Assembly: GCF_000003815.2 (NCBI RefSeq) | Contig: NC_049990.1 | Coordinates: forward strand, 21,903,297 to 21,967,296 | DNA length: 64,000 bases | Direction of reading: 5' to 3' | Source of the DNA: Branchiostoma floridae | Lineage: Eukaryota > Chordata > Leptocardii > Amphioxiformes > Branchiostomatidae | In this document: one piece after another, positions 25,983 to 49,600 of the stretch | Position numbering within the stretch: position 1 is the stretch's first letter | How the letters are laid out: each line of letters opens with the position of its first letter | Made by a program: the position numbers and the translations under genes | The notes under the pieces: model-generated | The model's input: only the letters and a program-made list of their open reading frames with translations | What the model was told of the DNA's origin: nothing | Databases searched by the model: none

Positions 25983-26331
25983 CAGGGCTCTAAATACTGG
26001 GTGCATGTGCACCCAGGTGCACCCAAAATTGGAGCTGTGCACCCAATTATTTTCTGTGGGTGCACAGGGTGCACCCAAATATTTTATTAGGTTTATGTAT
26101 GTATAGATATCAAAGTACACTAGTAAACCTCACATTCTTTACATCTAAATTAGAAAGATATTAAAAATGTCTCTCATGGTACTTGTTTAAGATTTGATAG
26201 CTTGTAACTAAGTTTTATTATTAGGTCATTGCTTAAATTTAAGTGGTGCACCCAAAAATTTTTGGGTGCACCCAATTTCTTAAGCTGGGTGCACCAGTGC
26301 ACCTAATTCCAAAAATGAATTTCGAGCCCTG
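25983..26331. mobile_element. hAT-like foldback MITE
   Basis: The ends are CAGGGCTC (25983-25990) and GAGCCCTG (26324-26331), the terminal type seen in hAT elements. Inside both ends are repeated GGTGCACCCA / TGGGTGCACC blocks in opposite orientations, so each half can fold. A 5-bp TCTAT is present at both flanks; hAT elements normally make 8-bp duplications, so the target-site evidence is incomplete. A partial similar terminus occurs near 31392. Confidence 0.6.
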
Positions 26332-27038
26332 TCTATTGACTTACATGTGTTTTGATGGACATCAAAAAAGACTCATTTTGATAGTTTCATTTTTCCTGGC
26401 CCTCGTTTGGCACTGCACTATTTATATGCACCTTTTTCTTTACCCTCATTGACAAAACCTCTATTTTTACCTTCGCCAGAAGGTTTAACCTCAAAGTTGT
26501 GTGATGGAAGAAGCAGCTATAGCAGGTGTATGGTGGCCGTATGTCATGGAAATGTTGTTGAAAATAGCAAAGTTAGCTATCAACAGAGCAGTACATTATC
26601 AGCAGCTAACAGGAGTATGACCAGGCCCGTAGATGGACCAGGTCCAAGCCTCCCTGCTGGCTATCCCTCAGCATCCCTGCCAAAACTGCACACTTCAAAG
26701 CCCCAGAGGTTCAGCCAGTGACAGGCCCAGGCCTTTGATGATGAGATGTGTGGAAAATCAGTTGTTCCATGTCAGGACTTTTCAAATCAGCAGTTAGCAG
26801 TGGGCAATGGTGGATACCCTGTAATACATATATCAGGGGTGTCTAAGCATTTGTATGAATTTTATGAAAATCACAAATCATTATGCGAACACATACAAAT
26901 TTTATGAAAAACGCACAAATCACTATGTGACACGCACAAATCATATGTGATATGCATGAACCTTATGCAAACCAGGGCAACCGCTGCCTGGGTCATTCAC
27001 TGCCTGGGTTACGTGAAAGACGGAGGGGGATTTTCAAG

Positions 27039-27104
27039 ATGGCGGCCTTGATCGTCGGTGACAAAAAATACGTTGTGACGTACCGAAAGGAACCAAAAGA
27101 GTAG
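27039..27104 (+). other. Promoter-like patch with a 21-codon open frame
   Basis: CAAGATGGCGGC at 27035-27046 matches the YY1 activator motif often found just downstream of metazoan transcription starts. Its ATG opens a 21-codon frame (MAALIVGDKKYVVTYRKEPKE) closed by TAG at 27102-27104. The patch is CpG-rich compared with the surrounding intron (TGACGTAC, ATCGTCGG). It could be the first exon of an unannotated transcript, a promoter of a non-coding RNA, or chance. No family resemblance was recognised. Confidence 0.25.
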
Positions 27105-27617
27105 CTCACAAGCTATCAAATATATCTTCGTATATGTCCTTTCAATGCTTTGGAATGGAAATATCACCAGTAGAAATGCTCAGAAACATGCATCCATATT
27201 GACAAAGCCATTAAGAGAATCATATTCATGTAGGAGGTGTAACAATAAAAGTTATGAATATGATCCTACATGTCATTTCTTGAAATTGGTTGATAATAAC
27301 AGTCATAGGTACATGTACATGCACCTTACACCTGTACATCTGTATACTGCCTCAGTCCTAAGTCTGTTTCTTGGAAGCTCTATGTTTTGACAGATCCTGT
27401 GTTGCGTGTAAAGGGGGGGAGTGTAACCACACAATGAGAAATGGGTCCATCTGTTGTACATGATTAAACTTGCCTGGAGCAAGATCTTTGATTTAATTGT
27501 GCAGAGTCTAGATGTCTTACAACTGCAGACCAACAGCTGTGATGCTATAAAAACTACAGTGGTGATATATAATAACATGGCCTTACCTTCCTGCTAGGGC
27601 CAAAACAAACTGTGTCT

Positions 27618-27715
27618 GAATGAGTGAGCGAGTGAGTGAGTGAGTGAGTGAGTGAGTGAGTGAGTGAGTGAGTGAGTGAGTGAGTGAGTGAGCGAGTGAA
27701 CGAGTGAGCGAGTGA
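27618..27715. repeat. (GAGT)n microsatellite
   Basis: Roughly 24 units of GAGT with a few GAGC variants near both ends. It produces spurious open frames of repeated SLTH residues on the minus strand, which I do not consider genes. Confidence 0.95.
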
Positions 27716-28201
27716 ATTGTAATTTGTTCTTTGGCAAATTCAAGTGGAAAATTATAATTGCACATGAAGAAATCATTGAACACGAAAATCGTCAATTTGC
27801 CAAATTTTCCGCCCAGTTTGATCAAGTGTCTATCGCATCATCGTAGTAAGAATGTGACACATGATGAGTTGGATTCTAAGATGCCAGCGTGTTTGGATAC
27901 GGTATCATATCTAAATCAACAGTTACCTATAAGGTAAGATGCGAGACAACTTTGGTGTTGGGCTGACCAGGGGTTAAGCCAGGACTTCCCCAGGATTGTA
28001 GCCTCTGCAGGCTAAGAGCATAGTTAGAGGTTCAAGGGATCATGTCAGAGCCTCTCCTTAGCCTGGGGTTGTGATCAAGATGGTAGGTAGGGTTGTATCA
28101 TTGGAAAGTTAGGGGGAAGTGAGATTTACTTTTTGGTTGAATGAAGAGATAGGCAAAATTAGACGTTACAGTATTTTGATAAAGAAGTATTGAATTTGAT
28201 T

Positions 28202-28404
28202 GCTGTAATTGCATTTAAGTTCGTGGGGATTCAATTTTGCGGAAGCAGGAAAACTGAGGTGGTTATAAGTTTACGGTAGCGCAATAGCCTGTAGTCAAAA
28301 GCTATAATGGAAAAATGTTTGCGGTTCTTTTTAGTTCGGGTTGAAGTGGTCAGCGTGAAAACTGCGAATATAAAACCGCCGCGAATATTTCTGCATTTAC
28401 AGTA
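28202..28404. mobile_element. Second copy of the TACTGTAAATGCA MITE family, inverted
   Basis: The right end TGCATTTACAGTA (28392-28404) matches the family terminus exactly; the left end GCTGTAATTGCA is diverged (10 of 12). The interior contains AAAACCGCCGCGAATAT and TAAGTTCGTGGGGA, matching the core of the copy at 24735-24936 in opposite orientation. Length is almost the same (about 203 versus 202 bp). Confidence 0.7.
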
Positions 28405-30640
28405 ATTGTAAGAGGAAAGTTAGGAATGTTTGTATCTTATACCCTTTTTGAATTTTGACATTTAGTCCACAGTAGAGTATATAGAGTCATCATGTAACAA
28501 GGAGGTATAGACTTGGTAATGGGGAATGCCAGCTTAATCGGCTAACTTGTCATCACACTGTCTCTGTGTTGTTCCTGTGTTGGTATCAGTAGATGCTCCC
28601 GTTCAAGGTTCAAGGTTCTGTGTTGTACACTTGGACTCTTGTGGAAAAGGAGCAATTCATACTTGTAAGGTGTAGATTTTTCCCTTACAAACCCAATAAA
28701 GAATGTATTTGTTCATTATTGTATTGTGAAGTTTGTGAGAAGTGATTGTTGTATCAAAAGCTTTGTTATCAATTTCGTCTGTGTTATCATTACGAGAAGT
28801 GGGTTTACAAATCTGTTATTTGCTGCTCTTTGAAGTCTAGCCACAGCCTGTGTAAGGTTGTCCACCGACAGGTGTGAAGTGACGTCCGTCCTTTGTTATG
28901 GGCATCATGCTTTTGTATGTGTATATACGTACCTATCTAATGTACCTGTTTGATGTATTGTATCTAATCTAAATTTGAATCTTCTTGGAGAAGTGACTGG
29001 CTTCACAGCATGATTCAAATTGTACTGTACAGCCTGAGGTGACGATAAACTAGATTTCTCCCATTCTTGAACTTGTTTGTCTACTAAGCTCGTTTAGGAA
29101 GATTTAAGGCCTTGTTTTGTACAGAAACTCTTCTAAGTTTCCGAGCGTGTGTGTCCAAAACCCAGACAACATCCTGCCTGTGCACCTGGCATGGCGTGCA
29201 CAACAAGAGAGCGCCACACTTCGGCCCTATCTGCTGTGGGCATCAACATTCTCAGAGTTGCTTATCGAGATGACTGTGTCCAAAGTACTACTGTCAGCAA
29301 CACACAGCTGTCAGTTTAGATACAGTAACTGTTGTATTTTGTCCTCAAGGAAATGCTGTAAAGTGAAAATGTTCAGTCTTTAAGTATTGCGTTATATTGC
29401 TTGTGTCAAGAGTGAAAGAAATTATTTCTGTTATGCTGTATGTACCGATATATTGTATGACCTTGTATTAGTAGCCTGTTTCAGATATTACAAGAAGGTG
29501 GATCTTATTATGTTATATATGTAACTACCATGTACATGCATAGCCTTGTAGCACCATGCACAAAAAAGTTAGAAACTGTAATGCAATATTTTATATTTGT
29601 TCTTCAATCAAGACGTAAAATTGATTCTTACATCTGTTTGGAAGTACAAAAAAAAAAGAAACCTCACGGCGCCGCCAAAAATACACAAACACCAAGAATA
29701 TTTGCTACATACTACAGGGTGGTATATCTGTCACCCAGAAAGATTGGCATTTCGATAGGATGACAGCTGTCAATCAGATACACGTGGATAAGATTGCCAA
29801 CATGTACCATACACAAAAGTAGCCCCCAAAAGCTTGTCTGGTATGTAAAAGAATTGATTCCCTGTCAGGAAAGATAATGACAGAGTTATGAATCTGTCAA
29901 TATTGTCTGATAGCTAGTGACAGTGTTGTATGCTTGTAGCTTAGATTTAGAACAAAGACTTAGTACTTGGGATGTTGATGGAGCAGTTTGGTTGTCATCC
30001 TTGAAGTTGAAGTGTTACATTTGTAAGTCATTATCTGATGAATAAAAGCTATGATAACACTTTTCTTTTCTTAGTGTCAATTCAAGGAATAGTCAAACTT
30101 AAAACATACTAACAGACAGACATTACCGCTTACCGCAGACAGACAGACATAAAGTCCTGCAAAACAGATTACCAGATACAAATGTATGCTAGGTGCTTTT
30201 GTCTTCCTTAATTGTGTAAGACACGTAAGTTGATACATGTATCTGATGTTCAGATGTGCTGTGATAAAATCATCTGTTTTGACTTACAAAGACAACTGGT
30301 TTCAAGACAATCTGTCAGGTCCAATTGGATATAGATGCAACCTGTATCCATGTTGGCATTACTAGGTATACTCACTTCACCTTACAAGGAAAACGTTTGC
30401 AAAGATCAGTCCTGTTATATGGATGCCTGGACCTTTCCTCTTTCATTTCCTGACTCCTGTTTGCACCCTGCCCACATATTCCACAGAGAGCACCCCCTCC
30501 CACATTCTCCTCTTTTACAGCTTCCAGCTGATGCCAGTAGATACCACTGTGGAGCAGACCTGACAGTGAATTAAGGGCAGTGATGGCCCCAGTGATAACA
30601 CCTTAATTGGCATACCTGTAGCCACAGCGTCTGGATCCCA
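28405..30640 (+). other. RYK intron 1 between MITE and nested gene
   Basis: AT-rich intronic DNA with no recognised exon or RNA gene. AACAGACAGACATT and GCAGACAGACAGACAT near 30110-30150 form a small repeat. Nothing else can be supported. Confidence 0.4.
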
Positions 30641-30759
30641 TCAGAGAAGTGTTAGCATGCAGCATCACGCTCCTTCACAGCGTCGTAATAAATTGTCTTG
30701 TTCCACTGAATATGCGTGTGCGAGTCTTTTATGCAATTCACTTTTTGGCCGCATGGGGG

Positions 30760-30932
30760 CTACTAGTGGTTTGTTCTCAAAGACAGCCCTGGGACAGAGA
30801 ACGTATTTTTCTGCGCGAAGCATGCTGGGAGGGCGGTAGTATCCTGGGGACGTGAATGTTGTGTGGATCGACGCTGCCAGAATTCGCTGTACGAGAGCTC
30901 CGATTTCTGCACGACAGCCCCCAAGTTTTGAG
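30760..30932 (+). promoter_or_regulatory. Promoter and non-coding first exon of the nested DUF6589-ankyrin gene
   Basis: A CpG-containing patch (GCGCGAAGCATGCTGGGAGGGCGG, about 30810-30835, partial) precedes a strong donor TTTTGAG|GTAAGTTTT at 30932/30933. The next good acceptor on this strand is TTTTTGCTTGCAG|AAATGG at 31894/31895, three bases before the ATG of the long open frame at 31897. The inferred 5' UTR intron is about 960 bases and contains a 100-N gap (31249-31348). The transcription start itself is not determined. Confidence 0.5.
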
Positions 30933-31248
30933 GTAAGTTTTCTGCATGTTATCGATATCTTATCTGCTATGAAAATCTATGCCTGCTTTCTGTGGTACGT
31001 AGAGTCGTTGCAACAAGGAACAGATGTATCGAGATAACATTGGATGGTTTGTAAATTCGGTCTGAAAATTGTGGAAAATTTGTCTTGATTTATGCAAATT
31101 ATATATGTACGCGTTTCATCTCGTTGTTATTGCTTCAAATGGAACATCAACCCAGTTATATCTATTTGTATCTATAGTATGTTGACCAGTTCTTAGCGTC
31201 GGTACAAAATTGCCGAGTATATTATATGCATTAGTGACAGCGGCAGGC

Positions 31249-31348
31249 NNNNNNNNNNNNNNNNNNNNNNNNNNNNNNNNNNNNNNNNNNNNNNNNNNNN
31301 NNNNNNNNNNNNNNNNNNNNNNNNNNNNNNNNNNNNNNNNNNNNNNNN
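31249..31348. other. Assembly gap, 100 N
   Basis: Exactly 100 undetermined bases, typical of a gap of unknown size. It lies in the inferred 5' UTR intron of the nested gene. Confidence 0.99.
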
Positions 31349-31896
31349 TATGCTACATTTCATTGTGGTTTTCATGCACTGATATGCCTCCAGGGCTCAA
31401 AATACTGGGTACAATTGCCATTTTATGTGTATTTTGTTCAGCAAGAATTTGAGATAATTTTTTTTAATGCAATAATGGTTGACTGGGGTGTCATATAACC
31501 CATGATGAAACTAGATTTTATAGAACAAATATTTTCAATACTCTTCATCAGTAAATTGTAGAAGGATAAAACCATTTTAATTGGCAGAAACAGCCCCATC
31601 CAATAGTGGAGTCAATTAACCTATTATGTAAACAGTTTTTGATCTGAACCCATTGGGTTTAAATGGTAACCTATGTAAAGGTACTGATATTGTATGCAAG
31701 TATATAGATTATTCTTTTTATTTAAGTGTCAGGAATAAAACATTTCAGTTCTTAGCCTTTGTTAACTCAAGTAAGGAGTCCATCACGACCAACATAGCTA
31801 GGCAAAAGTAAGCTAGTATTTGATGTTATATTAAGTTTGTATCAGTCCAACTTGTCAGCATTTACACACAGTAACCAAAAGTTTTTGCTTGCAGAA

Positions 31897-34800
31897 ATGG
31901 CGGACGGTGAGTCATCTGATGATGACAGACCCCTGGCCAGGTGTCTTCTGGGTGACAGTGAGACATCGTCGGATGATGACACACCACTGGCCAGGTTTCT
32001 ACCGGAACAGTCAACATCCACAACGACTCCAACTAACACGCCCAGGAAAGACAAAAAACGGCTCATGACCCCAAAGTCTAAGTCCCTCCCTGAGCCCTCC
32101 TCAAAGCGGGCAAGCACCGAGAGTGCCAGGAGTCAGCAGGACAAAGTGCGTTCTCTTGTACGGGGTTACCTGTTGAGTAAGCTCGAGGAAGGTGCAAAGG
32201 AGGACAGTGTTTTGATGGAAGATGTGCAAACAGGACTTCAAAGTCACTGCGAACAAATGGCTAAGCATTGTTCCAACAAAGAGGAGGAAGAGGAAGCATC
32301 GGCAGATACTTCGACGGTATCTGGTATTACTATATCTAGAATAGCAAAGTCACTCTTTACTATGAAGTATGTTGCAAAGGGCAAGGTTCTATCAGGGTTG
32401 AGGTGGAAGCCCACAAAGTTGGACAGTCTGCAGTTGGCCACAGACACTACAGACCAGATAGCAAACATCAGAACATTGATTGACAGAGTAGATGTAGACC
32501 TTGAGGAAAGATGGGCACACCTATCCAAGTTTGGGGCAGAGCACCAGGTGGCATCACAGTTTGCAGACTTGTGGGCCAAAAGAAACAAGCTTGTTTCAAC
32601 CCTTGTCCAGTTATACAAGGAGCATGTTGACCATCTGAGAGTACACGAAAAAAGTGGGTCACAGTTGTCCAAGGAGCAGAAAATCAAACTTTCAAGCAGT
32701 TATCAACGAAAAGTTTGGTGATGGTGGCCCCGTAATGTTTGCCTATGATAATATAAATATTCTCCGGGCTGTCCGACACATCAGAGTCCTGAAAGGCAAG
32801 GCACAGATGTGGAATTTCACAGTGCGGATGGCCATCAAACCAGACTTGGAAGGCATCGAGGAACTGTTCTCAGCTAAGGAGACTGCAGAGATGCCCCAGA
32901 AGCCCGTAGAAGACTTGAGTGCCGATGACATTTTCCTCCACTCCCATCCCGACTTGGAACAAGTATGGGAACAAGCTCAGGATGACTACTACTTGGACCT
33001 GCTAGACACAGCCCTGAACAAACTCCCCAAAGACATACGAGACCAGACTGACAAAACCGCAGCACAACAGAAATCCTGGCTATCCAAACAAGACCTCAAG
33101 AACTCGCAAACCTACACAATTCGACAAAGATCTGCAAATCCTCCAAACTCCAAGAAAACCGACATTGTTATACTTCCGCTGTCAACAGAAAATGAAGCCA
33201 CGCTAACAGGTACGGCCTGCATAAACGAGGAATTTGGCAAGGAATTTAACATTCCCATCAAAAGGAGTGACAAGTACCTTCCATTTGATGAGAACAATAT
33301 TCAGTTTGACATTTCAGTAGCCCGGAAGAGGTTCGAATTCAACAAAAGCATCGAACAACATAGGGTTGATCAAGCTGTCATACTGAACAGTATTTCAACT
33401 GATCCCTGGGATGAAGGAGAAGAGATCCCTGTTGACTTGGAGGGACAACAGGAGAATGGGGATGATGGACCAGCAAGCTCCAAACACCTGAGTTCCTTGA
33501 GAAGAAGATGGAAGGAGGAGGATGAGAAGATGGGAAGACTAGTGACAGAAATGCAAGAAAAGCTGGCCAGTGCAAAAAGGGCAGGGAATGCAGCAGACAT
33601 AGAGGAGTTCAGAAGATATATAGCAGATTCAAAAGATAGTTGGTGTAAGATAAGAGATCATGTAGGCCGTAGTATTGTACATGTTGTGGTAGAGTTAGGA
33701 GATGTAAGCCTGTTGCAACACATATTGGCCGCAGGAGTAGATGTAGACTGCGAGGAAGGGTGTGGGGCTACTCCCCTATGTCTTGCTGTAATAAGACATG
33801 ATTGTGACATGATACAGTGTCTGACAGAAACACAAGCAGTGTCTGTGGATGGACCCACCTTCCTACATTTTCCTTCTCCACTTGCCCTTGCCCGGAGAAT
33901 GGGGCACAATGACTCACTTCACATTATGGAGAGGTCCCTACCAGCACCTAGAGAAGATGTTAACGTGTACCGGTACATGCAGTTTCCCAACCAAGATGAG
34001 GAAGTGATGAGTAGTGTGGACAGTCTGACCAGTCAGATGGAGCAAGTACAGGTGGGAGAAGAGGATGAAGTGTACACATTTCATAGAAAAAATGCCCCAA
34101 ATGTGACTGTTGGAGATGGGCTGACGAACAAGAACCACCTGCACTGTCGACTTAGCGACGAAGTGGCCTTTGGTTGGACAACTGAAATGCCGGGTGACAT
34201 GCATGCATCGGGATATGCTGAAGAGTGCTTTGCCAAATCGCAGGGTCCCGGAGGACTATATCACGTAATCGCAGAAGTGCTCAAAAGGAAGAAGGTAAAG
34301 CAGGAAACATACGGCAAGGACAAATTCAAAGAAAACAATCTCCAGTTAATTAGAGAAGCCAACAGGGACGTGGCTTACGGGTATGGACTCTGTGCGGTGT
34401 TAGAGTTTGAGGATTCAGACCATTTCCCATCTGAAGAAGAACTGTCAAATAGCGGGCCAGATAAGGGACCACTGCTTTTATCAAGGTTCAAGGACTGGCT
34501 TGCCTCGTGTAGTGAAGATGATGTTGCATTCCAATACAGGATTCAGAGTGTGTCACTTTTTGGACCACTCTTAAGACTTTACTATAGTTCTATCAAGAAT
34601 GGAGATGGGAATGCTCGAGAAACAGTATGGATGATGTTGCTTCCCATATTCTCCCAGTCAAAGAAGAAAAACTACTGGATCGAGGCTCTCTCACATGTAG
34701 TCAACATGACAGCTGCATGGCCAATTGCCATCAGGAGAATGGTGCAGCAGAACTGTTCGGTCAGTGTCGATGGTAGAAAAGGCCACAATATTGCGTGTGA

Positions 34801-35230
34801 CGAGTATGTAGAAACCCACATTGTCAAACCACTGAAACAGTACTGTTCCGGTCAAACCACCCTTAAGACTCTGAAGCGACTGAATGTTAACTTGCAACTT
34901 GTTGGTAGCGCGAGAGCCTGTTACAAGTCTAGCAGTGGTTTTGATGTCCACAATACAAAACGGCACAGTGAGCCATCCCCATTACTAGATCAGATCTTTG
35001 TATGCCTGTTCTGCTTGAAAGAACAGTTTTTCATGTACAATCCTGACCGCCGAAAGGCCAAGATTTATCCTTCCACTGGCACGCAGAAGTTTGTACCTAA
35101 TGATAGGTGTGATGTGTACAGTAAGGGATGTGAGAAGGTCAGGTCCAACTTCCAAAGAAAGATGTATGACATATTTCCCAATAGACGAAGAGTGCCATCT
35201 GTGTTCAGGGAAAATGTCCCCACAGAGTGA
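31897..35230 (+). CDS. DUF6589-like protein with inserted ankyrin-like repeats, one frame break
   Basis: One long coding exon of about 1,110 codons. The ATG at 31897 follows a strong acceptor. Residues 1-40 are acidic with a duplicated SSDDD-x-PLAR motif. The first frame runs to 32721; the second, shifted frame is open to TGA at 35228-35230. The switch must occur between about 32642 and 32721, and no splice pair explains it. In the second frame, FAYDNINILRAVRHIR (near 32738) and downstream segments PGDMHASGYAEECF (near 34190), FGPLLRLYYSSIKNGDG (near 34560) and GRKGHNIACDEYVE (near 34772) resemble what I remember of the DUF6589 family, whose function is unknown. A coiled-coil-like stretch (33490-33640) and about two to three ankyrin-like units (33650-33935) separate the two halves. 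The gene could be transposon-derived or domesticated; the break could be decay or a base-call error. Confidence 0.7.
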
Positions 35231-36300
35231 TTTTACTTATTGCAATTGATTGTTTACCATATGGTTGTTTGCCATTTGATTGTAAGGCTTCCCAAATTGC
35301 TCTAACCAACAGTGTTTAATGTCTGTACAAGATAACTTCATGTCTGGCTACTCTCATTTTGTGTGATGGCAAACATTTTCTTAATTGTCATGTGTCAGAA
35401 AACATGGAAGTTTATGGTGATTTGTAAGCAAATGTTGGCAATTAAGATCAAGATATTTCTACCTGCATATTTGCTGTTGTAATTGGACTTTGGCACTGAA
35501 GACATTGTATCGGTAGCCCTCCAGATTTTGTAGCAAAAGCAATAGATTTTGTACTATGTGGCCATTTGTACAGTATTACATATTTCTTTGACAGACAATG
35601 TATGGCATCTTTCCCCAGAGAAGAATAGTGTGTCTTCTGTGTTCAGGGCAATATGCTTTTTTTTTGCTTGTGCAAACAGTGATTTGTATGATTAATATGG
35701 TGATTGACACATTGATACATAAACATGTCAGATGAGGGCTGAAAGATTACGGCTAGAACCATTACCTTGTATTCCTGTTCTGCCAAATTCTGAGTTATTG
35801 CCAAACCTAGCCCTTATGTAATAGTTGAATCTGTACAACTATAATGTGACTTTTTTTTTTTAGTACAGTGACTTATTTTTTGTTATGTGTTGTAAGTCAA
35901 AGTTTTGGATATCAGACAAAATATGACAGGCATCTCTGTATTATAGTACCTGAGGGACAGTTGCATTTGAAATTTGTTACATTTTGCATACTGGGAACCA
36001 TTCAAATTACCAGTGGTGTGAAGGAAGCATTCGTGTGAACTCAATTTTTATTTTCATTGCAAATGTTGCAATTTATTTCTGGATGCATAACATAAAAATG
36101 GTATGTCAAGGTGTGCAGGTATTGTTAGAGATTTACACTGGTTGTATTATTTTAAGAAGTACTTCTGCACATGACTATCAGTACTCTGTGTTTGAGTATT
36201 CATGTTAATTCACACTGCATACCTACTTGAAAGGGGTATGATGTAATTTTGAACTGTACTTTACAAGCATGTAAATAAAAGACATGTATATACATACTAC
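35231..36300 (+). other. 3' UTR of the nested DUF6589-ankyrin gene
   Basis: No coding sequence. A canonical AATAAA lies at 36274-36279, about 1,045 bases after the stop codon, preceded by AT-rich sequence typical of a 3' UTR. This supports a transcribed gene rather than a bare transposon remnant, though transcription itself is not shown. Confidence 0.45.
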
Positions 36301-37128
36301 TTCTACTGGTCCTTTGTATTGTGTGAGATGAGCTTTTTAGCACAACAATTGAAATAGTCTCCATTTAACTTATCTTTCTCCTTAAGCAATTCACAGCCCC
36401 CAGTCAATTCAGCAGTTACTTATTGAGATAAAAGCTGTACATACAAAACTTATGTCACAACATTTATGTAAAAACAAACAGGCAATAATCCCTTATTGAG
36501 AGGAACAAGTCAAACACTTTACTTCCCTCGACATTAAATACATGTCAATCATGAAAGAATAACAAGCACCCTGACTGAAAATAGCTGTAGTGTAATTCAA
36601 ATGGCCTGTTTCAGTTTAGTTTCTGCTTGTTCATTTGACAAGAATACCCAAAAGGTTCAAGGTCAGTGACCTGTACTTAAGAAGCATAATGGCTATATAT
36701 GCATACAGTTTTTGCTTCTACTAATCCTTTATGCTGTACGGATTGCTAGCAAGCAATAGTGTCATATGGACCAACTAAATTTTATACATCAACAGAATAT
36801 GTTATACAATTCTTATATCTCAAAACCCACACAAAATAGAAAAGGTTGGATCATCTGTCTTCCACTGTCTGGAAAATAAGTCGAACACAACAGACCAGAG
36901 TATAGAACTAGGTTTTAGACAGGAATAATCGTAGAAGAAGCAACCAGTAGTTTTACAGGGGATTAAGTATTTACATATGTACAGTGACTCCTTTATGTGA
37001 ATTTTTTTCAATGCGGTCCCAAACCTAAAGGGGTTATAGTCTAAAACATGTACATGTAGCATGTATCTGCATTTTTTGTATTGGTATGCAGAAAATGCAC
37101 TTAATTCATATTGAACAGACTTAAAATG

Positions 37129-37228
37129 NNNNNNNNNNNNNNNNNNNNNNNNNNNNNNNNNNNNNNNNNNNNNNNNNNNNNNNNNNNNNNNNNNNNNNNN
37201 NNNNNNNNNNNNNNNNNNNNNNNNNNNN
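37129..37228. other. Assembly gap, 100 N
   Basis: Exactly 100 undetermined bases, probably of unknown true size, directly against an inverted piece of RecQ coding sequence. Palindromic duplications often break assemblies, so the missing part may hold more of that copy. Confidence 0.99.
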
Positions 37229-37312
37229 GGAGATGAGAAATTTATACGCACACTGACTAGACTGGAGATCCTAAAGAGGGTTGAAGTAAACGTGACAACG
37301 TTTACAAGGTAA
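37229..37312 (+). pseudogene. 3' end of a second RecQ-helicase copy, truncated at a gap
   Basis: The plus strand is open from the gap edge and encodes KFIRTLTRLEILKRVEVNV then TTFTR and TAA (37310-37312). The last exon of the minus-strand helicase encodes KFIRILTRLDILKEV near its end and EVNVTMFTR at its very C-terminus. The copy joins these two parts, lacking about 27 residues in between. The match continues past the stop (TAATATTCTATGTGATTGA). The two copies point toward each other. Codons differ mostly at third positions, so this is a diverged paralogue rather than a trivial assembly reflection. Whether the full paralogue exists in the gap or is only a fragment cannot be told. Confidence 0.7.
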
Positions 37313-37432
37313 TATTCTATGTGATTGATATAAAATATAACAGTCTGCTTTATCCCCATTGCTAGCTTAAAGGCTAAGGTGTACTAAAATGTATTTTCTT
37401 TATGTTGTTGTTTCTCTCAATCACATAGAATA

Positions 37433-40216
37433 TTACCTTGTAAACATTGTGACGTTTACTTCATTCTGAACAGCAGATTCTGCTAGTATACCTGGACAGA
37501 TGTACACAGAGGTAAACTTATGGGTGGGACTCTTTGGCACTACAACCTCTTTAAGGATGTCGAGTCGTGTCAGTATACGTATAAACTTCTGACACACCTT
37601 CACATTAAAACCTGAGTTTTGTCCCAGTCCGAACTCCGGAAGCTCATCCAACTTGTGCTTTTTTACTTCTTTGCCAGTCCCAAGTCCAAGGAATACTCTG
37701 GCAAGAAGAATGGAAGGAGGCTGTGGCACTGTGTGGCGAATGGCTGAGAGACACCGGATCACGAAGGCAGCTTCTCTCTTTAGCACAATTTCTCTCGCCA
37801 CCGTTGTACTTTGACAGTTGTCACAGGTCCCATTGCATTCGTATCCAGCAGTGTCTTCTGAAAACGCTTCAAGTAAAACCTTTCTCCTACACAGTTCAGT
37901 TTCGCAGAAGTGTATCATGTCTGATAGTCTTTGAAGAGACTGAGTCCTGTACTGTTCATCTTCAATTTCCCCAACCCTCTTGATGTGGATGGCCTTGTCC
38001 TCAGGCTTGAAAAACAGGATGGACTTGGCCTGTCTTCCATCTCGTCCGGAACGTCCCGACTCCTGAAGGAAGTCCGGAATTGAGGATGGACATCCCAGGT
38101 GGACCACAAATCTTACGTCAGGTTTGTCGAGCCCTGCCCCTGCAGCCTTAGTTGCGACTAAAATGTCCTTCACACCGGTCTGCCAATCAACCAGACTCTG
38201 CCTTCCCTCTGCCTCATTCTGCCCTGTCCCCGTACCATGATATTTGACTGCTTTCATCCCGATTTCCTGTAGCTGATAGTGGATGTCTTTTACGTCATCC
38301 ACAGTCTGGCAATAGATGATGCCAGACTGTCCTCTGTGCTCCACTACAACTTCACACACCTGAGCATGACACATTTCTTTTGTCCTGCCCTTCGTCTTGA
38401 CCTCGTATGCGATGTTTTTTCTGTCTACCGATGAACAGAAAATACGACAGTCACCCATCTTTAAGTTTTCGATAATGAACTGTTTTGTTGTTGGTGTTGC
38501 AGTGGCAGTGCATGCCACAATCTGTGTCTCAAGGTCAGCCAGTTTGGAGAGCTGTAGGTAGGTGGGGCGGAATTCATGGCCCATCTGGTCCATACAGTGG
38601 GCCTCATCCACCACCACCATCTCCAAAAGTCCCCGTTCTTTCAATCCTGTTACACACTCCCACACTGCTGCCTTGTTTATCAAACTTTCAGGTGTTGTTA
38701 TGACAAGTTTTGTTGTTGGACTAGGGCTGTTTAGATCATGGATGATGGTGTGCATGCTTGCCTCTGCCGTGAGGTGGGACAAGAAGACTGATGGTATGCC
38801 ATTACCCATGTACCTTCTTAAGAGGTCTGCTCCGAGAGCTACCAGTGGAACAATCACAAGTGTGACCCCTTTTCTCAGAAGGGCTGGGAGGGTAAAGCAT
38901 AGTGTCTTCCCACCCCCTGTCGGCATTACGAGCATAGTGTTTTCCCCAGCATGAACAGTCTGTACGATATCCTTCTGTCCAGCTCGGAAGGAGGGTAGGC
39001 TGAAAACTCTTCTGAGGCACTCCTCCAGTGGATCAGCAATGTCTGTTGTGTCTGGAGCTGGACATGTAGCATTGCTCTTGGCAGTCACCTGTTGATCGGG
39101 ATGTTTGGAAAACATTTTTACACCGACTGGCTTACAGACAATAGTTATGAATGTCTTGCTGTCCTCTGCTGTCTCTGAAAGATACCACAGGTGATAGTTG
39201 ACCTCCTTGTCTTTCCCTTCAACGCTCAAGGAATATGGTGGGCGCCCGCTCGAGAAGGAGTTCAGAAAGGCTCCGGCATGGAGTACGATGCCCGCCTTTT
39301 TTGCAGCAACTTCGGGCCTTGTTGCAGTGACTTTGGTTGACAGTGCTGGGCTTGTCACTGAGAACTGTTCACCTGCCTGCTCATTTACCTGTAAGACAAA
39401 CAGTTGACACAAAACATAAGTACAATGTACTATCCAAGAGTTTGCTTTTGTAATATAATGTAAGTACAAATACTTTTGTTCATGTCTTTAGTATTACTTA
39501 ATCAAAATATACAGATATATAAGTTGGAGAACCCAGTTATTCACACACATTTTCAGTGTTTTTTTTCTTCAAAATGATTTCCAGATGTCCAAAAAGCCTA
39601 TTCACAGTAATGACTCTTTGCATATGCATTATTGGGGAACTTTATCAGGCTTGCAATAACTCTCTTCATTTCAACACGAAACGCAGTTACTGTATTACAA
39701 GGCTTACAATACTATTTACTGAAGTCTGAAAATAAACAAGAAGTCCTTTAACTTTTGTCTTAGACAGAAATAGTGAACTACATACGACTCAACAGTTAGA
39801 AACCAATAGCACTTAGTAACCTAGAGCACGTGTCTCCCTGTTTGCTGGAAATCTTCCTCGAACTGCAAATATCATAATAACTTTAACAGTGCATGATATT
39901 AATTCAGCATAACTCGTCCATTACATCCCAATCCTCACAACTGCAAACGTACCTCGAGGTCTTGCAGTCTCTGCTTCATCTCTTCGAAACACAGCTGGCT
40001 CAGTTTCTGGTTCGCTGTTTTTTCCGCCGTGGCGTCAGATTTTGTGCCGTGTTTAGAACGATAGTGCACGTCCAGGCCGGCTCCTTTCTGGAAAAACACA
40101 GCATTGCCGTCGCAGTCATGGTGGGGGCACGGCACCCTCCCCTCTCTGGAGGCTCGACAAGCGGTGTTTAGTAGTTTTTTTAGCCCTTCTCCGTCGTTTT
40201 CTCCACTTTCTGCCAT
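37433..40216 (-). CDS. RecQ-family ATP-dependent DNA helicase with N-terminal zinc-finger-like segment
   Basis: Two coding exons on the minus strand: 40216-39953 (88 codons) and 39388-37433, giving 739 residues. Exon 1 holds CPHHDC followed by HYRSKH, a C2H2-like arrangement at about residues 30-55. Exon 2 has the RecQ helicase core: FRAGQKDIV, P-loop PTGGGKT (244-250), DEAH (349-352) with the following GHEFRPTY loop, TATATP (motif III), and QESGRSGRDG (530-539, motif VI). The zinc-binding cysteines CETELC...CNGTCDNC (583-613) follow as in RecQ proteins. No HRDC domain is evident. RecQ enzymes unwind DNA 3'-to-5' in replication and repair. The N-terminal finger and length do not match human RECQL, BLM, WRN, RECQL4 or RECQL5 as I know them, so no symbol is given. 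It is nested in RYK intron 1, antisense to it, and convergent with the DUF6589 gene. Confidence 0.9.
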
Positions 40217-40640
40217 TTCCAGACCGTTGTGATTTTGATCTACTGGCTTTTATGAATGCAAATGTCTTCATTTTGGCACCTTTTTGCCGCCAGAGGAGCT
40301 CGGCCATGGTTAGCATCTCGGTGTTAGAATGTTACCGTCCTTTGTTTTGGTTGTGAAATACCCCGATCGTGTCTCCGCTGTGCTATTTCTGGCAGATCGT
40401 GACGTAGCACAGCAGCTGCATATCATTATTTCTCGGGTCCCCCAGCGCTCGGGCGCGCTCGGGCTTCCGTCGGCTCTTTGCATACATTATCCCGCATGGC
40501 AACAGCCGGCTCATTAAATATGCGGGCGCCATCTTGGATCGAAATCTACCAGCGTCCGCGGAGAAGGCCAAACTCGCTACCGTAGCGAACTCCCTTCCGT
40601 GACATAACTCCCCTCTCGGCAATCTAGAAGGGTAATCTAA
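40217..40640 (-). promoter_or_regulatory. CpG-rich promoter region of the RecQ gene
   Basis: The sequence upstream of the start codon at 40216 is markedly richer in CpG than its surroundings (for example CCCAGCGCTCGGGCGCGCTCGG near 40440, partial). It contains CGCCATCTTGG at 40527-40537, the reverse complement of a YY1 motif, which therefore reads in the sense direction of the minus-strand gene. The exact transcription start is unknown. Confidence 0.5.
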
Positions 40641-43398
40641 CACCCTCGCAGCGCCACCAAATTAGGTACATTTTAAAGTTCCCTTTGATATAACGTATCA
40701 CCATTGTGGCATCATTTTACCCCCGAAATAGTAAACTTTCGTCTTGTTTTCGCCTCGGTAACTGTAGAAAATACTAGCTAACTAGGGTACAGTCTCACGT
40801 TGTATAGAGACGCACACAAGAGTCACACAACTTACGATTTGCTAAGGTAATTGAGACAAACACAAAACAAAACAAAATGACAGCTGTGGATTCCATATAG
40901 TTTTATTTGTGTATTGGTTGAGCCCACAATCTAAACCTATGGCTTCTTCGCGGCGCTGGGTACGAGCGTGATGCAGCATGGCATGGAGGGAGACACTGGG
41001 CCTGACATGTGCACACACTTGTCTGGTCTAAGTGCACTTCAATCAAAGAAGGAAGCCAGGCTGTTATGTTGTAGCTCCTACCTTGAGCTTGATACTGATG
41101 ATATACCTTTTTAGGGAAGGTGTTTTGGTTGGAACTATAGCAGTGCCATAGATTCTTACCCTTGAGCAGGTTTGTTTTAGACTGGAATTTCTTTTGGCAT
41201 CCATACTAGCCTGTCTTCCAAAACAAGAACAGTAGGGGGACCGAGGACTGTTCCCTGGTGCACCCCCTCACCAAAACCAAACTCCTTGCTGTACTGTCAG
41301 TTGACATACAAATGGCCCCTCAATACTGTCATACTGTCTTGAGTTCTGATTTTGATATTTTTCATATAAGATATGCCAAAGTTCTACACCAAAATCTCTA
41401 GCCCTAATTGTGTCATCATTGATAAGATTCAGAGATCTATCTTTCTCCGCATCTTATTCTGATTGTTAATTTGATTGACATTGACAATGGGGATGCAAAG
41501 ATGAGAGTGAGAGAAAATGATGTTCAGATGATCCATCATGCTGGTAGGCAAAGTATGATAACACAATCAAGTGCTGACAAACTGGTGATTAGAAACTGAC
41601 ATCCAGTCATTAAGATGTAATGGGATTCATCACGGTTCCTTTTCTGTAATCACAAAATGCTGCCCAGTATCTTTAAACTTTCATTAGAAATTACCCCCAG
41701 ACAATACTTAAAAGGACATTTCATCTGGATTCAATATCTTGACGTGGACCAGTTGTGCCTTTTCAAATTAAGAAAGTATCCTGTTTGGTAGGGACCTTGG
41801 CAGTCTAGTGGGTTGACTTACAATCCCACATTAGTGCGTTAGGAAGTCGGTTTCTCTAAATGAAACAGCGGTCCCTTTTGGGCCATGTAAATTGGTTGGT
41901 TCTCATATTTTGCAAAAAATGGCGATAGAAGATCAACCTAAAAATGGTGTAAGAAGCGAGTAGTGGCCTAGCTCCCGGGATTCAAACCCAATGCGCTAAC
42001 CATTACCCCAAAAGGGTCAGACCCATTTGGCATGGTCAGTTTGGTAGCGCTCGAACCCCACTGATAAAGTGGAGTCTGAGGGAAAAGTCTGTATGTTGGT
42101 ACATTTTTTCTTTCCCAGCCCTGTTTTCTTCTCGATCCATTGCTAAAATTTTCTTTCAAGATGCCTGAGAGACAAGGAGATAAATGGTATAGCCTTAGGG
42201 ACAGCTTCTCCTCTTGTCAAAGGAAGTTGTGGAAGAGATGGATATGGCCTTAAGACAGGATGGAAGCCATAAAACTCTAGGGAAGTGTCCTGGAAGATTT
42301 AATCTGTCATCGGCTGAAGTGTTTGAGTAGGAAGTTACCTGTCTGTACCCTGCCAGGAGGGAATATGTTTTAAATCGGAAAGGTGCCTGGTGGCCTTGGG
42401 GCAGTTAGGCCCTAGAAAAAAAATATTTTGTTTCCTGTTTCAGTCCTAAGAAATTAGGGGCGGCAGGTAGGGATTATCTTCCTTTCTCTTGTAATTTTTT
42501 TTTAGGCTGGCCAAAACTCTAGTGTGACATATTACTATGCAGTTGAACAAAGTAAACTGAAATGCATGAAGACACAAAGTGTCTTTCAGTGTCAAACTTG
42601 AATGTTGTGAATAGATATTTCATTTGTAATATATCCTTCATTATATTTATAGGTCAAGAACTTGAAGAAGCGCTTTTTACTTCAATAGGAAACAGGCTGA
42701 ATAAAAATTCTAACTGGAACTTTAATTGGAAGCTATGTGACTCCACTGCCTAACCCCCAAAAAAGTCTACGGCCATTAGGTTTTTCTAGGGTAAGTAGGG
42801 AAACAGGAAACACAACATTTTTTTCCTTGGCCTTACATAAGAGTAGGGTTTACTTAACGCTTCCTGTGGATACTTTTAGGTCATGGTTGAAGTGCATCTC
42901 CTGGGGAATGAACTATTGCTGCTTTAATGAAGGGGTGTGGAAAGGTGGCCTGTGGTTTGTAATATTGGCTATTTTTGGACAACTTGACAGAGTTGGTACA
43001 TTCCTGTAGGCTGTACCATGCATTGCTGCAGATTTTGATTAATTGAGCCATTTTGATTAATGCATTGAGTCATTTTTCAATTTTTTTACATTATATTCCT
43101 TCTTGACGCAGTTTTGTATCTTTGTGAAAATGGACATATTGTTTTCGGTCTGTGCTTTTTTTTCCTCAAGTGTTTTACACAGTTTTTTGACTTTTGTAGA
43201 GTGACAGGGTGTGAGGTGGAAGATGGTGTAACTGGGGACTGGTAAGATGGGAAGGTTGACTTGGCCTGGATCCAAAGTTGGTCCACAGACTGGCAGAAAG
43301 ATACATAGACAAGGATGAGAAATATGAATAAAACGAAATATACAAAAACTCACTGAGGTATGATGGCGATAATTTCTCATTTTAGCGTAACAGACTCC
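40641..43398 (+). other. RYK intron 1 between the RecQ promoter and the large gap
   Basis: Intronic DNA with no recognised exon. It contains a SINE-like element at 41935-42085. Short open frames have no splice context or resemblance to known families. Confidence 0.4.
41935..42085 (-). mobile_element. tRNA-derived SINE-like element
   Basis: On the minus strand the segment contains GGTAATGGTTAGCGCATTGG, an A-box-like tRNA arm, then GGGTTTGAATCCCGGGAGC, a good B box. This is the arrangement of a tRNA-related SINE head. It does not form a full tRNA. Confidence 0.6.
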
Positions 43399-44103
43399 NN
43401 NNNNNNNNNNNNNNNNNNNNNNNNNNNNNNNNNNNNNNNNNNNNNNNNNNNNNNNNNNNNNNNNNNNNNNNNNNNNNNNNNNNNNNNNNNNNNNNNNNNN
43501 NNNNNNNNNNNNNNNNNNNNNNNNNNNNNNNNNNNNNNNNNNNNNNNNNNNNNNNNNNNNNNNNNNNNNNNNNNNNNNNNNNNNNNNNNNNNNNNNNNNN
43601 NNNNNNNNNNNNNNNNNNNNNNNNNNNNNNNNNNNNNNNNNNNNNNNNNNNNNNNNNNNNNNNNNNNNNNNNNNNNNNNNNNNNNNNNNNNNNNNNNNNN
43701 NNNNNNNNNNNNNNNNNNNNNNNNNNNNNNNNNNNNNNNNNNNNNNNNNNNNNNNNNNNNNNNNNNNNNNNNNNNNNNNNNNNNNNNNNNNNNNNNNNNN
43801 NNNNNNNNNNNNNNNNNNNNNNNNNNNNNNNNNNNNNNNNNNNNNNNNNNNNNNNNNNNNNNNNNNNNNNNNNNNNNNNNNNNNNNNNNNNNNNNNNNNN
43901 NNNNNNNNNNNNNNNNNNNNNNNNNNNNNNNNNNNNNNNNNNNNNNNNNNNNNNNNNNNNNNNNNNNNNNNNNNNNNNNNNNNNNNNNNNNNNNNNNNNN
44001 NNNNNNNNNNNNNNNNNNNNNNNNNNNNNNNNNNNNNNNNNNNNNNNNNNNNNNNNNNNNNNNNNNNNNNNNNNNNNNNNNNNNNNNNNNNNNNNNNNNN
44101 NNN
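43399..44103. other. Assembly gap, 705 N
   Basis: The largest undetermined run in the window, within RYK intron 1. Open frames running through it are artefacts. Confidence 0.99.
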
Positions 44104-44321
44104 CGCTATCAGGAAGCGGATTGGCTCTTATTACGTCCTTATTTTAGACGGTACGTTTATTTTTTTTTTCAAATTGGGGCTTTCTTTACTAACCAGGGAC
44201 CCCAAAAATATTGAAAGTTTAGTATTTTCTGCCCATATTTCCGCGGTGCTTTTGCTTAAAATTCAATATTTTTCGGACGAGGCAGCGCGGATTTCCCTGC
44301 CGCTAGCGCTATGACCCAAAC

Positions 44322-44346
44322 CAAGGACGTTGATATAACGTCCTTG
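44322..44346. repeat. 10-bp-arm palindrome
   Basis: CAAGGACGTT and AACGTCCTTG are perfect inverted arms around a 5-base spacer (GATAT). Possibly the terminus of a repeat element entering the gap to the left. Confidence 0.8.
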
Positions 44347-45040
44347 CCCAAACATAACAAGGGATGACCGGTTCTGGACTTGCAAAAACGTTTCGGTGCA
44401 GGTCCAAAAATACCGGAACACATGTGATTCGGTACTGGACTCGTAAAAAAAATATATCCTTTTCGTTTTAGACCATCTTTAACCTTCCAAAAATCTTGAA
44501 ATTTGCGCTGAACAAAGACGAAAACATCGAGGTCACATGCTACACACACAGTCACTTACTTCCGTAAATTCTCTATCAAAACACAGAAATTAACCACCAA
44601 CCAAACAAATTAAAAAGTTACCAATACTTTTCCACTATTTTTCACCCGTAGTCAACTTGTTTTAATGTTCCAGCAACGAAAAAATCCTTCCAAAACAAAG
44701 CACAGCGTTCGATCGGCTCGAAAACATCCGCCATGTTGGATTCATCAACTTACGCCGAATCTCGCGGTAATGCGCGAGAGAATTATATATTTTCTGCAGT
44801 GCCGTTACATTTCGATAGGGGGCAGTGTCTATGACCTCCTTGGTTTCTGCAACATTGAAAATAGCACAAGTGGTGAATAAGGTATTCTAAGTTGGAATGT
44901 TTCTTCAAAATGTTATTTTGTAACAATGATTATAAAATAAACTTCTTTTTTTATTTCTTCAATTTTTATTTTCATTCATTTTTTTTACTTTTATTTTGAT
45001 CTTTGTTGATGGTGTGACACTCAGATAAAGAAAATATGTG

Positions 45041-45060
45041 CAAGGAGGTTAACCTCCTTG
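45041..45060. repeat. Perfect 20-bp palindrome
   Basis: CAAGGAGGTTAACCTCCTTG is its own reverse complement. The same arm forms a foldback at 24629-24662. Confidence 0.9.
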
Positions 45061-45212
45061 ATATGTGCAATAACATAGGAATTATTCTGTTCATTATTGA
45101 TACAATTAACTGACATGGTACTGAGGCATAAATAAATAAAAAGAGCCTACCTGCTTATCATCTTCTCTTGGACTGAAGTAGCATGGGCAGTTTACATGTC
45201 AATTTGGTATTT

Positions 45213-45303
45213 TTCCGGGGGGTACTTTTATTCCAGGGGGTACTTTTATTAGATTTTGAAGATTTGTCCGGGGGGTACTTTTATTCCAGGGGGTACTTCT
45301 ATT
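45213..45303. repeat. 53-bp tandem duplication of GGGGGGTACTTTTATT blocks
   Basis: Two tandem units begin near 45214 and 45267. Each unit itself contains two copies of a GGGGG-TACTTTTATT block, so the repeat is nested. The copies are nearly identical. No function is apparent. Confidence 0.8.
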
Positions 45304-46570
45304 TGAGAGGTGAGAGTAAAGGTTCTTGAAAGAATGCCAAAATGGTAACATCCATCTTGAGCTTTTTGTGTATTCTGAAGAAGTCAATTGTTACTGTTGT
45401 CAAAACTTGGTTGGGATGTGATAAGTCATTGTATTGTTTCGGGCTTCTCTGTCTATCTTTGTATGTCTCTTTTGAACAATTGACATACGTTTTACAAAGG
45501 AGTGCTTACCATTTTAGTGGGTGAAGTCTGCCATCTCGAAATGCATTGTACGAAACAGAAATCCAAGTGTGTAACGTCCACCCCATAGCCCAATTTCATG
45601 AAACATTTTTCCATCCTTGTTCAAAAGGCCTGAAGTAAGATAATACGGTATTTCTGTTTGTAGTTCAAGTTTAGGAAGTGTGTGGGATGTAGATATGCCA
45701 CATGGTCAAAAATGATGAACTTTGAACACCAGTTTTGCCATGACACCATTCCCATAAGTAAAGAACAGCTGAGCTACTAAAGAGAGGACCAGAGGCATCT
45801 TGTAACTTAACCCATCCAGAAAGATAAGTACATGTTGTAAGTCTCCAACTAGCAGCTGCATCACTGAAGGCTAGAACTTTAGACACATCTCAGTAAAATT
45901 TCATATTCTTCTGGGGTTTGAAGAATGTGTGGAGAAACATAAGATGAATTTAATCATTTGAAATATGACCGTTTGCTTCTATATCATGAGTGTACACGTT
46001 CATTACGTCTAGTGTATGCACATACTAACTACGAAAGTGAAACACCTGTATGGTCCAAAATTAGCCTACAGTCCATTTGGCAATTCCAGCATTTGAACAA
46101 GGAGTTGACGACAACTTGCATCCCTTGTTGACAACAAATTGGAAGTGGTTATTTCCACCAATTAGCGAGCCATTCCCCCTCAATTAAGGCAGGGGGATGG
46201 GTCCTTTGTTGTACCTTCCCTGGGGAAAATTGTTGCCCAACCCCTTTTAATGCCATTTTGAGATAACATTGTCTTGTTAGGGGTACCTTCAGATTGGAGA
46301 GACATACCGATGATCCATATGTGAGGGGAGATAACAATGTGCTTGGTCAGTCCTACCAAATTTGGGACCCACTATTGTTGGGTCTTATCTGAGAAAACAG
46401 GAAAGATTGCAGTGTTATCACATCTCCCATCTTTCCCACCCCACTTAAATGGAAGAAAAGATACAGGCACAAAAGTGTTTGTATAGTTTTAGACTGGTTT
46501 TAGACTTTGCTGTTTGCCATTGTCTTCATGGAAGGCTGCTGCCCAAAGTACCATCTATTAGATAATATGT

Positions 46571-46666: not shown

Positions 46667-49600
46667 ATATTTCAGCCATACCCCTTCCCACGCAACATTG
46701 GACTGTTCCAAATCACCCCTGCGCAAAAATGGAACATCCTCTTAACAGTACATTATCCCCCAAAGTGGACTGGTATTGTGAATTGATTCCAGGTAAAAAC
46801 AGAGCTTGCTTCTATTTTTCAGAAAATGACAATAATCACACCTTCCATTCAGAAAATTTTCATCATGACTGAAAATTGTTGAATGACTTCATGTAATGTC
46901 ATTAACAATTTTCAGTACGATAACTAGGTGTAAGTTTAAAAAAGTATAAGCTCCTTGTAATGTGGGTACATTTATTATTGCAGTGAACTTTTTTTTATTC
47001 AAGTACGGCATACGATTTAATAATTATCAAGCAGGTGCAGGTACTGTAGGAGCGTTTGTTTTCTTCAAGCTGTAAAACTGTTAAACTGTTTTACTTTGTA
47101 TGCAATCAGCCATCGAGCCCATTCTTATTTTAGTTTAACAACTTCCTGCCAGACCCGGAAGATACGATTGAACCTTGTTCGAGGATTTATTTTCGTCTGT
47201 CTGGTCAGTCTGTTCATACCCTGGCGCTGAGAGTGTTTTATTGGGCTGAAACTCTGGCAGTTTAAAGTTACTTACAATTTAAATGTTCAAAATTTATGTC
47301 AAACAACAACAGCACTAGGAAATGTGGCCACTATAGACAGGTGGTCACTATAGAGAAAATGCTGATCTATTGACTAGGAGCCATACGTTACACATGATTT
47401 CAGTACACTGATCATTAATCATCTAAACATTGCACAGGTAAGCCAATTGTTTAGATGTACAATTAAGTTCAAATAATTCTGAAGAGAAATATTGATGAGA
47501 AAATAATCATTCTCGCCACTGTCTAACTTATAATTACGTATCAAAACTAAACGCAGATTTTCTAACTAACGCACCTTTCGCCGACTTCATCAAAGGACCG
47601 CCGGCTATCAATCAAACACGGCTGTTGATTAGACTTAGAGTTTCAAACAGTCGTGTGCTGTGTGCCAGTTGACAGCGAACTTCATGCTACGTGATGTTTT
47701 ACATTGCTTGGACCTTCTTTCCTACAACGGTGCTTCTACAAAATATTTAGACTGTAACACTGAGTCCCACATGTTTTATAGAATAGAATTAGACGCAGAA
47801 CAGCGTTTTTTGCTGGGTATTTTTCTTGAAACATGTCCGTGGGAATATCAGCGAGGCGGCGACGTAGGGATATCAGACCGTCAACAAAAGTCGCACGGCG
47901 GCTAACGGCGCAGCGAAGATACTAGCGCTATTAATAAGCGCTTCAACTAAGGATGGCAACCCGTACAATATTTTTGTATACTTTTGAGCTAAGTAAAGTT
48001 TGTTGTTTATGAGGTTTTAGTTGTCTTTGAAGCTTTGACCCGAAATATTTTAAAGTCAAACTGCTGAAGAGAAGTAAGTGACTGCTACGATTATCGTAGA
48101 TATGGCCCTAAAAAAACTGATAAAAGAAGCCTTCTCAATAGTCTAAAATGCAAGAGCTTCCGGGGGGGCTTCGCCCACCTGGGTCCCCCCCACAGTGGCC
48201 CTGCCCCTGGACCCCGCCAGGGACATTCGGCGGCCCCCGGACCCCTGTCCGACGCTTTGAAAAAATCCTGGCGAGAAGTCTGTACGGCCTGAGTCTTCAA
48301 GTTAACGTATTGTGTGGTCCCGCTTATGAATATTAATTAGCCCTCGCTTTCCTCTTCGCTGATTGGCTGAACCATTAATTGAATTACTGTAACTCTTCCT
48401 GCCGGCTAGACGCAGGTGCAGATGTCGGCTCTGTGGGGTGAACGTCCGAAAGGTCATGGCGTGGAGAACGAAAGAAAACAAATTTCCCCTAAAAAAAGTG
48501 CTGTAATTAAGCCTTTTACAGTACTTTATGCCAAAAATTTTACTTGGATCATTTTACCAACTATCTTATGCCTATCTATACCAAATGTTACTCATACCAG
48601 GGTACAGGGGTGCAAAATATACCGTTATAAGACCGTCAACAACAGTCGCACGGAGCTAACAGCGCAGCGAAAATACCATCGCTAGCGTTTCAACTTCGGA
48701 TAACAAGTTATAAGTACTGTTGAACTCAGTAACGTTAAAGTTTGTTTTAGTTGCCTTTGACGGTTTGACCTGAAATAGTGTTACGCTAAACTCCTGAAGA
48801 GAAGTTAAGTGACTGCTGCGATTATCATAGATATGCCCCTAAGAACTGATACAATATAAAGCCTTCTGAATAGTCTAAAATGCGAGAGCCTTAGGCGGGC
48901 TTCGCTCCCCCTGGCGGGAACACTGCTATATATGGGATCATGAGGCCCCGCTTATGAATACTAATTAGCCTTTGGCCTCCCCTTCGCTGATTGGCTAGGT
49001 CTTTGATTCAATTAACTCTCCGGCTGACGCGCACAGGTGTGGCTCTGTGCGGGGTCACGGAAGGTCACGTCAGGAGGCCAAAAGAAAACAAATTTCCCCT
49101 CAGAAAAGTGCCAAAATTAATCATTTTAAAGTTGTTTATGTCAAAAATTTTACTTGAATCTTGTTACCAAGTATCTAATACCTATCTTTACCAAATTTCA
49201 GGTCATTTAATTGTAATACCAGGGTACAGGAGCCAAAAGTGTCCTTTTTTGGTCAAAAGTTGGCCAAAAATCGCAAAAATAAGCATTTTGTTGCACTGTA
49301 CACCAAAAGTGTTATTGAATTTATATGAGGGCATTATCAAGGCACATCTCTGTCAAATTTCAGCTCATTTGGTTGTAATACCAGGGTACAGGGGCCAAAA
49401 GTGTCCTTTTTTTGGTCAAAAATTGGTCAAAAAATCGCAAAAATAAGCATTTTGTTGTACTGTACACCAAAAGTGTTATCGAATTTATATGGGGGCATTA
49501 TCAAGGCACATCTCTGTCAAATTTCAGCTCATTTGGTTGTAATACCAGGGTACAGGGGCCAAAAGTGTCCTTTTTTGGTCAAAAATTGGTCAAAAAATCG

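Follow-up and report, generated by a model that had tools for sequence, protein, structure and literature searches.

A helicase-bearing lineage of Academ transposons in animals and fungi is said to have been described by Kojima in 2020. Transposons of the Kolobok superfamily duplicate TTAA at their target site. ProtoRAG, which is found in lancelets, is bounded by terminal inverted repeats (TIRs), carries two convergent genes and produces a target site duplication (TSD) of 5 bp. To our knowledge, no function has been described for the DUF6589 family (PF20231). RecQ helicases have been reported in Academ elements (PMC3627910, in excerpt), the TSDs of AcademH elements are given as 9 or 10 bp (PMC10045372, in excerpt), and curated Academ elements of bivalves have a mean length of 5,565 bp (PMC10294476, in excerpt). 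RecQ extends beyond one superfamily, being present in KolobokH, which is reported from fungi only, and in rhodophyte Kolobok; in Kolobok-1_CCri it is encoded on the complementary strand (PMC9587614, in excerpt).

The DNA analysed here was taken from Branchiostoma floridae (assembly GCF_000003815.2, contig NC_049990.1, positions 21,903,297 to 21,967,296 of the forward strand) and is referred to as the window (64,000 nt in total). All coordinates are window positions. The feature under study spans 31,897–35,230, and residues are numbered along an 855-aa frame starting at 32663. The gene flagged at this position most probably encodes the transposase of a DNA transposon of the cut-and-paste kind, about ten kilobases long, on which a RecQ gene is present as well. 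The segment 30666–40970 (10,305 bp), which is bounded by TIRs and encloses both genes (Table 1), is probably a single AcademH-type DNA transposon with two convergent genes, in which the DUF6589 protein would serve as a DDE-type transposase. It was filed as AcademH-type because of its RecQ gene (as in Academ), and its 9-bp TSD (as in AcademH, and unlike the TTAA characteristic of Kolobok), a provisional assignment based on the RecQ gene and the TSD as described in the literature.

Among the described systems, ProtoRAG resembles the present element in its TIR-bounded arrangement of two convergent genes and differs from it in its unrelated proteins and its 5-bp TSD. The best boundary pair found here carries a 9-bp repeat, in contrast to the TTAA of Kolobok. 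KolobokH and Kolobok-1_CCri, as presented in the excerpted source, are likewise DNA transposons with RecQ, which in Kolobok-1_CCri lies on the complementary strand. The helicase gene and the TSD, whose length lies inside the reported range of 9 or 10 bp, agree with the excerpted accounts of Academ and AcademH, respectively. TIRs are also present and match at 16 of 20 bp in a comparison of the two ends of the element with each other. The ankyrin module inside DUF6589 and the separate, convergent RecQ gene are possible points of difference from AcademH, and the element is about twice as long as the mean given in the excerpt for curated bivalve Academ elements. Its DUF6589 protein resembles the PF20231 family in that the match lies well above the cut-off and gives weight to D713 and E717, whereas it differs in that only part of the profile is covered and an ankyrin module is located inside the domain.

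Table 1. Coordinates of the element, its ends and its two genes (window positions).
Feature	Position	Strand	Basis
Left TSD copy, 9 bp, ATGCAGCAT	30657..30665	+	Boundary scan
Left TIR, 20 bp	30666..30685	+	16/20 match to right TIR
Presumed promoter region of DUF6589 gene, CpG-rich	30666..31240	+	CpG change point at 30628; putative promoter role
Presumed 5' UTR intron	30933..31894	+	GTAAGT donor, CAG acceptor; contains 100-N gap; predicted from sequence
Frame 1, N-terminal part of presumed protein	31897..32721	+	ATG at 31897, stop ends at 32721; 274 aa
Frame 2 (stop to stop), encoding DUF6589 and ankyrin module	32639..35230	+	
Weak N-terminal DUF6589 stretch, ~10 bits	33113..33262	+	Residues 151–200; construct scoring
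Ankyrin-repeat module between the two DUF6589 stretches	33551..33934	+	Residues 297–424; PDB chain matches
Main DUF6589 stretch with DxxxE motif (D713, E717)	34571..34858	+	Best profile stretch, residues 637–732
Candidate polyadenylation signal AATAAA, DUF6589 gene	36274..36279	+	Sequence; putative
RecQ gene exon 2, including stop	37433..39388	-	Coding 39388–37436 plus stop; predicted splice site
RecQ gene exon 1 with C2H2-like motif	39953..40216	-	Sequence; predicted splice site
Presumed promoter region of RecQ gene, CpG-rich	40217..40970	-	CpG change point at 40968; putative promoter role
Right TIR, 20 bp	40951..40970	-	Boundary scan, inverted-repeat scan
Right TSD copy, 9 bp, ATGCAGCAT	40971..40979	+	Exact match to left copy

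The ends of the element were located with a combined TIR and TSD scan, designed after TSDs of 9 or 10 bp had been seen reported for AcademH, in which 10.92 million pairs (left, 27500–30999; right, 40230–43349) were scored for TSDs of 2–12 bp. The top pair enclosing both genes combined an exact 9-bp TSD with TIRs matching at 16/20. When the whole flanks were shuffled, 1 of 200 shuffles reached the TIR-plus-TSD score, and the TSD of this one shuffle likewise measured 9–10 bp. Among other, overlapping pairs of stretches sampled from the window, the score was reached by none of 200 at a TSD of 9–10 bp and by 11 of 200 at any TSD length. Shuffling within CpG-defined intervals did not reproduce it in 4000 attempts (best shuffled score, -9.35 vs -11.83). 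An inverted-repeat scan of positions 26000–46000 returned nine pairs, including one whose arms, at 30656–30685 and 40951–40980, lie outside both genes. Taken as a bare inverted repeat, this pair is suggestive only: its score was equalled by none of 300 shuffles, but two of 300 pairs of actual stretches from the window did as well. Because the 9-bp repeat is nearly palindromic, it had earlier been mistaken for part of a 30-nt inverted repeat. CATG was also considered as the target duplication and rejected, since the scan put the boundary at the 9-bp repeat. Short inverted repeats built from GGTGCACCCAAA were observed at 26016–26273 and may represent a small foldback element.

The ratio of observed to expected CpG was mostly 0.8–1.5 for a few hundred bases inside each end and mostly below 0.4 outside. 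Change points were placed at 30628 (interval 30575–30681) and 40968 (interval 40757–41008), and these intervals contain both ends. As the TIRs themselves contain CpG and CpG-rich stretches are also common elsewhere within the window, the CpG and TIR evidence are not fully independent. In neither flank is there a long open frame into which the element might have inserted, the longest frames measuring 100 and 110 aa. Two gaps of 100 N lie inside the element, one within the presumed 5' UTR intron and the other between the genes (37129–37228). With the gene and RecQ both located between TIRs and a 9-bp direct repeat, the transposon origin advanced in the original prediction is now better supported than it was at that stage.

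The RecQ helicase gene is encoded on the opposite strand, convergent with the DUF6589 gene, and comprises two exons that specify a protein of 739 aa, open throughout. The protein was matched to the sequence of a solved RecQ structure (E 7.4e-70) and to the profiles DEAD, Helicase_C and RecQ_Zn_bind (the last at 5.3e-13), and it contains RecQ motifs 0, I, II, III and VI. A partial inverted copy of the 3' end of the gene, located at 37235–37342 (plus strand) and 37403–37463, adjoins the 100-N gap. It shows 89% complementarity over 61 nt, and its tblastn match to the RecQ C-terminus (E 0.10) is missing an internal stretch; it may have arisen at a join in the assembly or be the remnant of another, decayed copy.

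The proposed resemblance of the flagged gene to DUF6589 was confirmed by a profile check against PF20231, which returned a match of 60.2 bits (E 2e-16) at a gathering cut-off of 27. The strong match is limited to positions 278–375 of the 410 positions of the profile, with the remainder weak or absent; a match over most of the profile was not found. Constructs lacking the insert and containing residues 151–200 scored 58.5–59.7 bits in five of five cases, compared with 49.5 bits for the C-terminal part alone. Because of this added score, the domain seems, at the level of profile scoring, to be interrupted by the ankyrin module, with a weak N-terminal half, although residues 1–300 scanned alone gave no DUF6589 match at E values up to 10, which counts against a split. 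Of the earlier proposal that an ankyrin insert separates two DUF6589 halves, the interruption was thus retained, whereas the first half was reassigned to residues 151–200. The DNINI segment originally named as this half contributes nothing, as a construct with residues 1–90 scored 48.8 vs 49.5 bits, and the profile match does not extend to the PGDMH segment, likewise taken for part of the domain (D512A, +0.9 bits; H514A, -0.4 bits).

Single alanine changes at D713 and E717 affected the PF20231 score by 6.9 bits each, and changes at E714 and N709 had nearly no effect. D29, N30, D512 and H514 lie outside the profile match and receive no profile support. As D713 and E717 are the only acidic residues backed by the profile among those probed, the assignment of catalytic aspartates is still a guess. 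Two structure predictions from the single sequence reached mean pLDDT values of 33.4 and 36.7 and were unusable as models. A sequence search of the PDB returned no match for the C-terminal region and one match (E 0.14) for the region preceding the insert. Searches of NCBIfam gave weak ankyrin-type matches only, those of PHROGs weak matches only (best E 0.019), and Rfam gave no match at gathering score in window positions 28000–43000. No relatives were found in viral_contigs, phages, plasmids or genome_contigs, all of which are collections without animal genomes; the searches of viral_contigs and genome_contigs reach close relatives only.

The isolated 128-aa insert matched solved ankyrin and DARPin chains with E values down to 4.4e-24, summed over the repeats, of which about four could be read off the alignment; for single repeats, the E values were only about 3e-4. 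All Pfam ankyrin models remained below their cut-offs; Ank_2, for example, scored 26.9 bits on the isolated region against a cut-off of 27.3. Judged by the solved chains, the ankyrin-like repeats pointed out in the original prediction are therefore real, but the Pfam thresholds were narrowly missed.

The coding region had been described as one long open frame. It is in fact split over two overlapping frames, and a single protein would require one frame change. Within frame 2 itself, the first ATG is located at residue 25 (window 32735). Frame 1 gave no family match in the profile search and no match in the PDB, and by a crude RNY codon index frame 2 was preferred past the overlap but frame 1 was not preferred ahead of it, so that the assignment of both frames to one protein rests on adjacency and length. 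The 1,110-aa read-through chain obtained by joining the frames matched the same six families. An intron is unlikely as the cause of the frame change; the top-scoring candidates measured 46 and 43 bp and had poor acceptor tracts, and longer ones scored lower. The frame of the putative transposase is thus interrupted in this copy, which points to a transposase-inactive copy or a sequence error. Recruitment of the gene by the host, which had been suggested, gained no supporting finding and is not favoured, since the gene lies inside an apparently complete element and its frame is interrupted. The predicted 5' UTR intron and polyadenylation signal are compatible with the sequence (30933–31894; AATAAA at 36274) and are kept as presumed features. 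At the N-terminus of frame 1 (31912–32005), the motif SSDDDxPLAR occurs twice, with a spacing of 54 bp at the DNA level.

The anatomy described above, with its family matches, its RecQ gene, its repeats and its boundaries, has been shown, whereas mobility, catalysis and the roles of the helicase and the ankyrin module in the following scheme are inferred. The DUF6589 transposase would bind the 20-bp ends and excise the element; joining to another target would involve a stagger of 9 bp, and fill-in by the host would create the 9-bp duplication. Unwinding or processing of the ends, or of the joint, would fall to the RecQ helicase. The ankyrin module would act as a protein-binding arm tethering the transposase to a partner, for instance the helicase or a chromatin protein by which integration is directed.

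Several other origins of the locus were weighed against an AcademH-type transposon. The two genes might be neighbouring host genes, or a transposase gene recruited by the host might lie next to a RecQ gene; in either case the promoters would be CpG islands, and the repeats would have arisen by chance or be relics of an immobile element. The RecQ frame, open throughout, the gene-like CpG-rich 5' regions and presumed introns, and the one full-flank shuffle in 200 that attained the TIR-plus-TSD score would all fit such an origin; we nevertheless consider it very unlikely, because the TIR/TSD repeats fall together with the CpG change points on either side of the element and the interrupted DUF6589 frame does not suggest a protein maintained by selection. 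The DUF6589 and RecQ genes might also stem from two different elements or have been brought together by a scaffold misjoin across the gap at 37129–37228. This gap lies between the genes and is adjoined by the partial inverted copy of the 3' end of RecQ, which would fit such an origin. The 9-bp repeat and the TIRs, however, match across the gap, outer end to outer end, and this origin is likewise judged very unlikely.

The boundary evidence (TIRs plus 9-bp TSD, 0/4000 shuffles) applies in the same way to a two-gene DNA transposon outside Academ, in which DUF6589 would be the transposase of an undescribed superfamily and RecQ would have been acquired independently. RecQ is not confined to a single superfamily, as stated for KolobokH and rhodophyte Kolobok (PMC9587614, in excerpt), and within the literature collection searched no paper named DUF6589 and the single paper with PF20231 was unrelated. 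The pairing of RecQ with a 9-bp TSD is, on the other hand, as described for Academ and AcademH (PMC3627910 and PMC10045372, both in excerpt), and a position outside Academ appears unlikely. As a broader proposal, which we regard as rather unlikely, DUF6589 may define the transposase of an extensive group of eukaryotic transposons that is possibly separate from Academ, with the ankyrin module serving as a targeting arm that couples it to the helicase or a host partner. For the preferred reading of an AcademH-type element with a DUF6589 transposase, the transposase role, if true, would be the first concrete and testable role for this uncharacterised family, and gene counts in which proteins of this kind are attributed to the host would have to be corrected. 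An ankyrin module inside the domain would, if kept in other copies, be an unusual position for a targeting arm.

Further features were observed elsewhere in the window. Open frames at 469–6255 (plus strand) matched, in order, NB-ARC/AAA (just under the cut-offs), TPR and Death domains and look like one or more genes of the innate-immunity type. At 49192–49777, a 163-bp unit is arrayed in tandem in 3.6 copies with 94% matches, and an open frame at 57175–57606 partially matched a protein kinase profile (PK_Tyr_Ser-Thr, E 5.6e-07).
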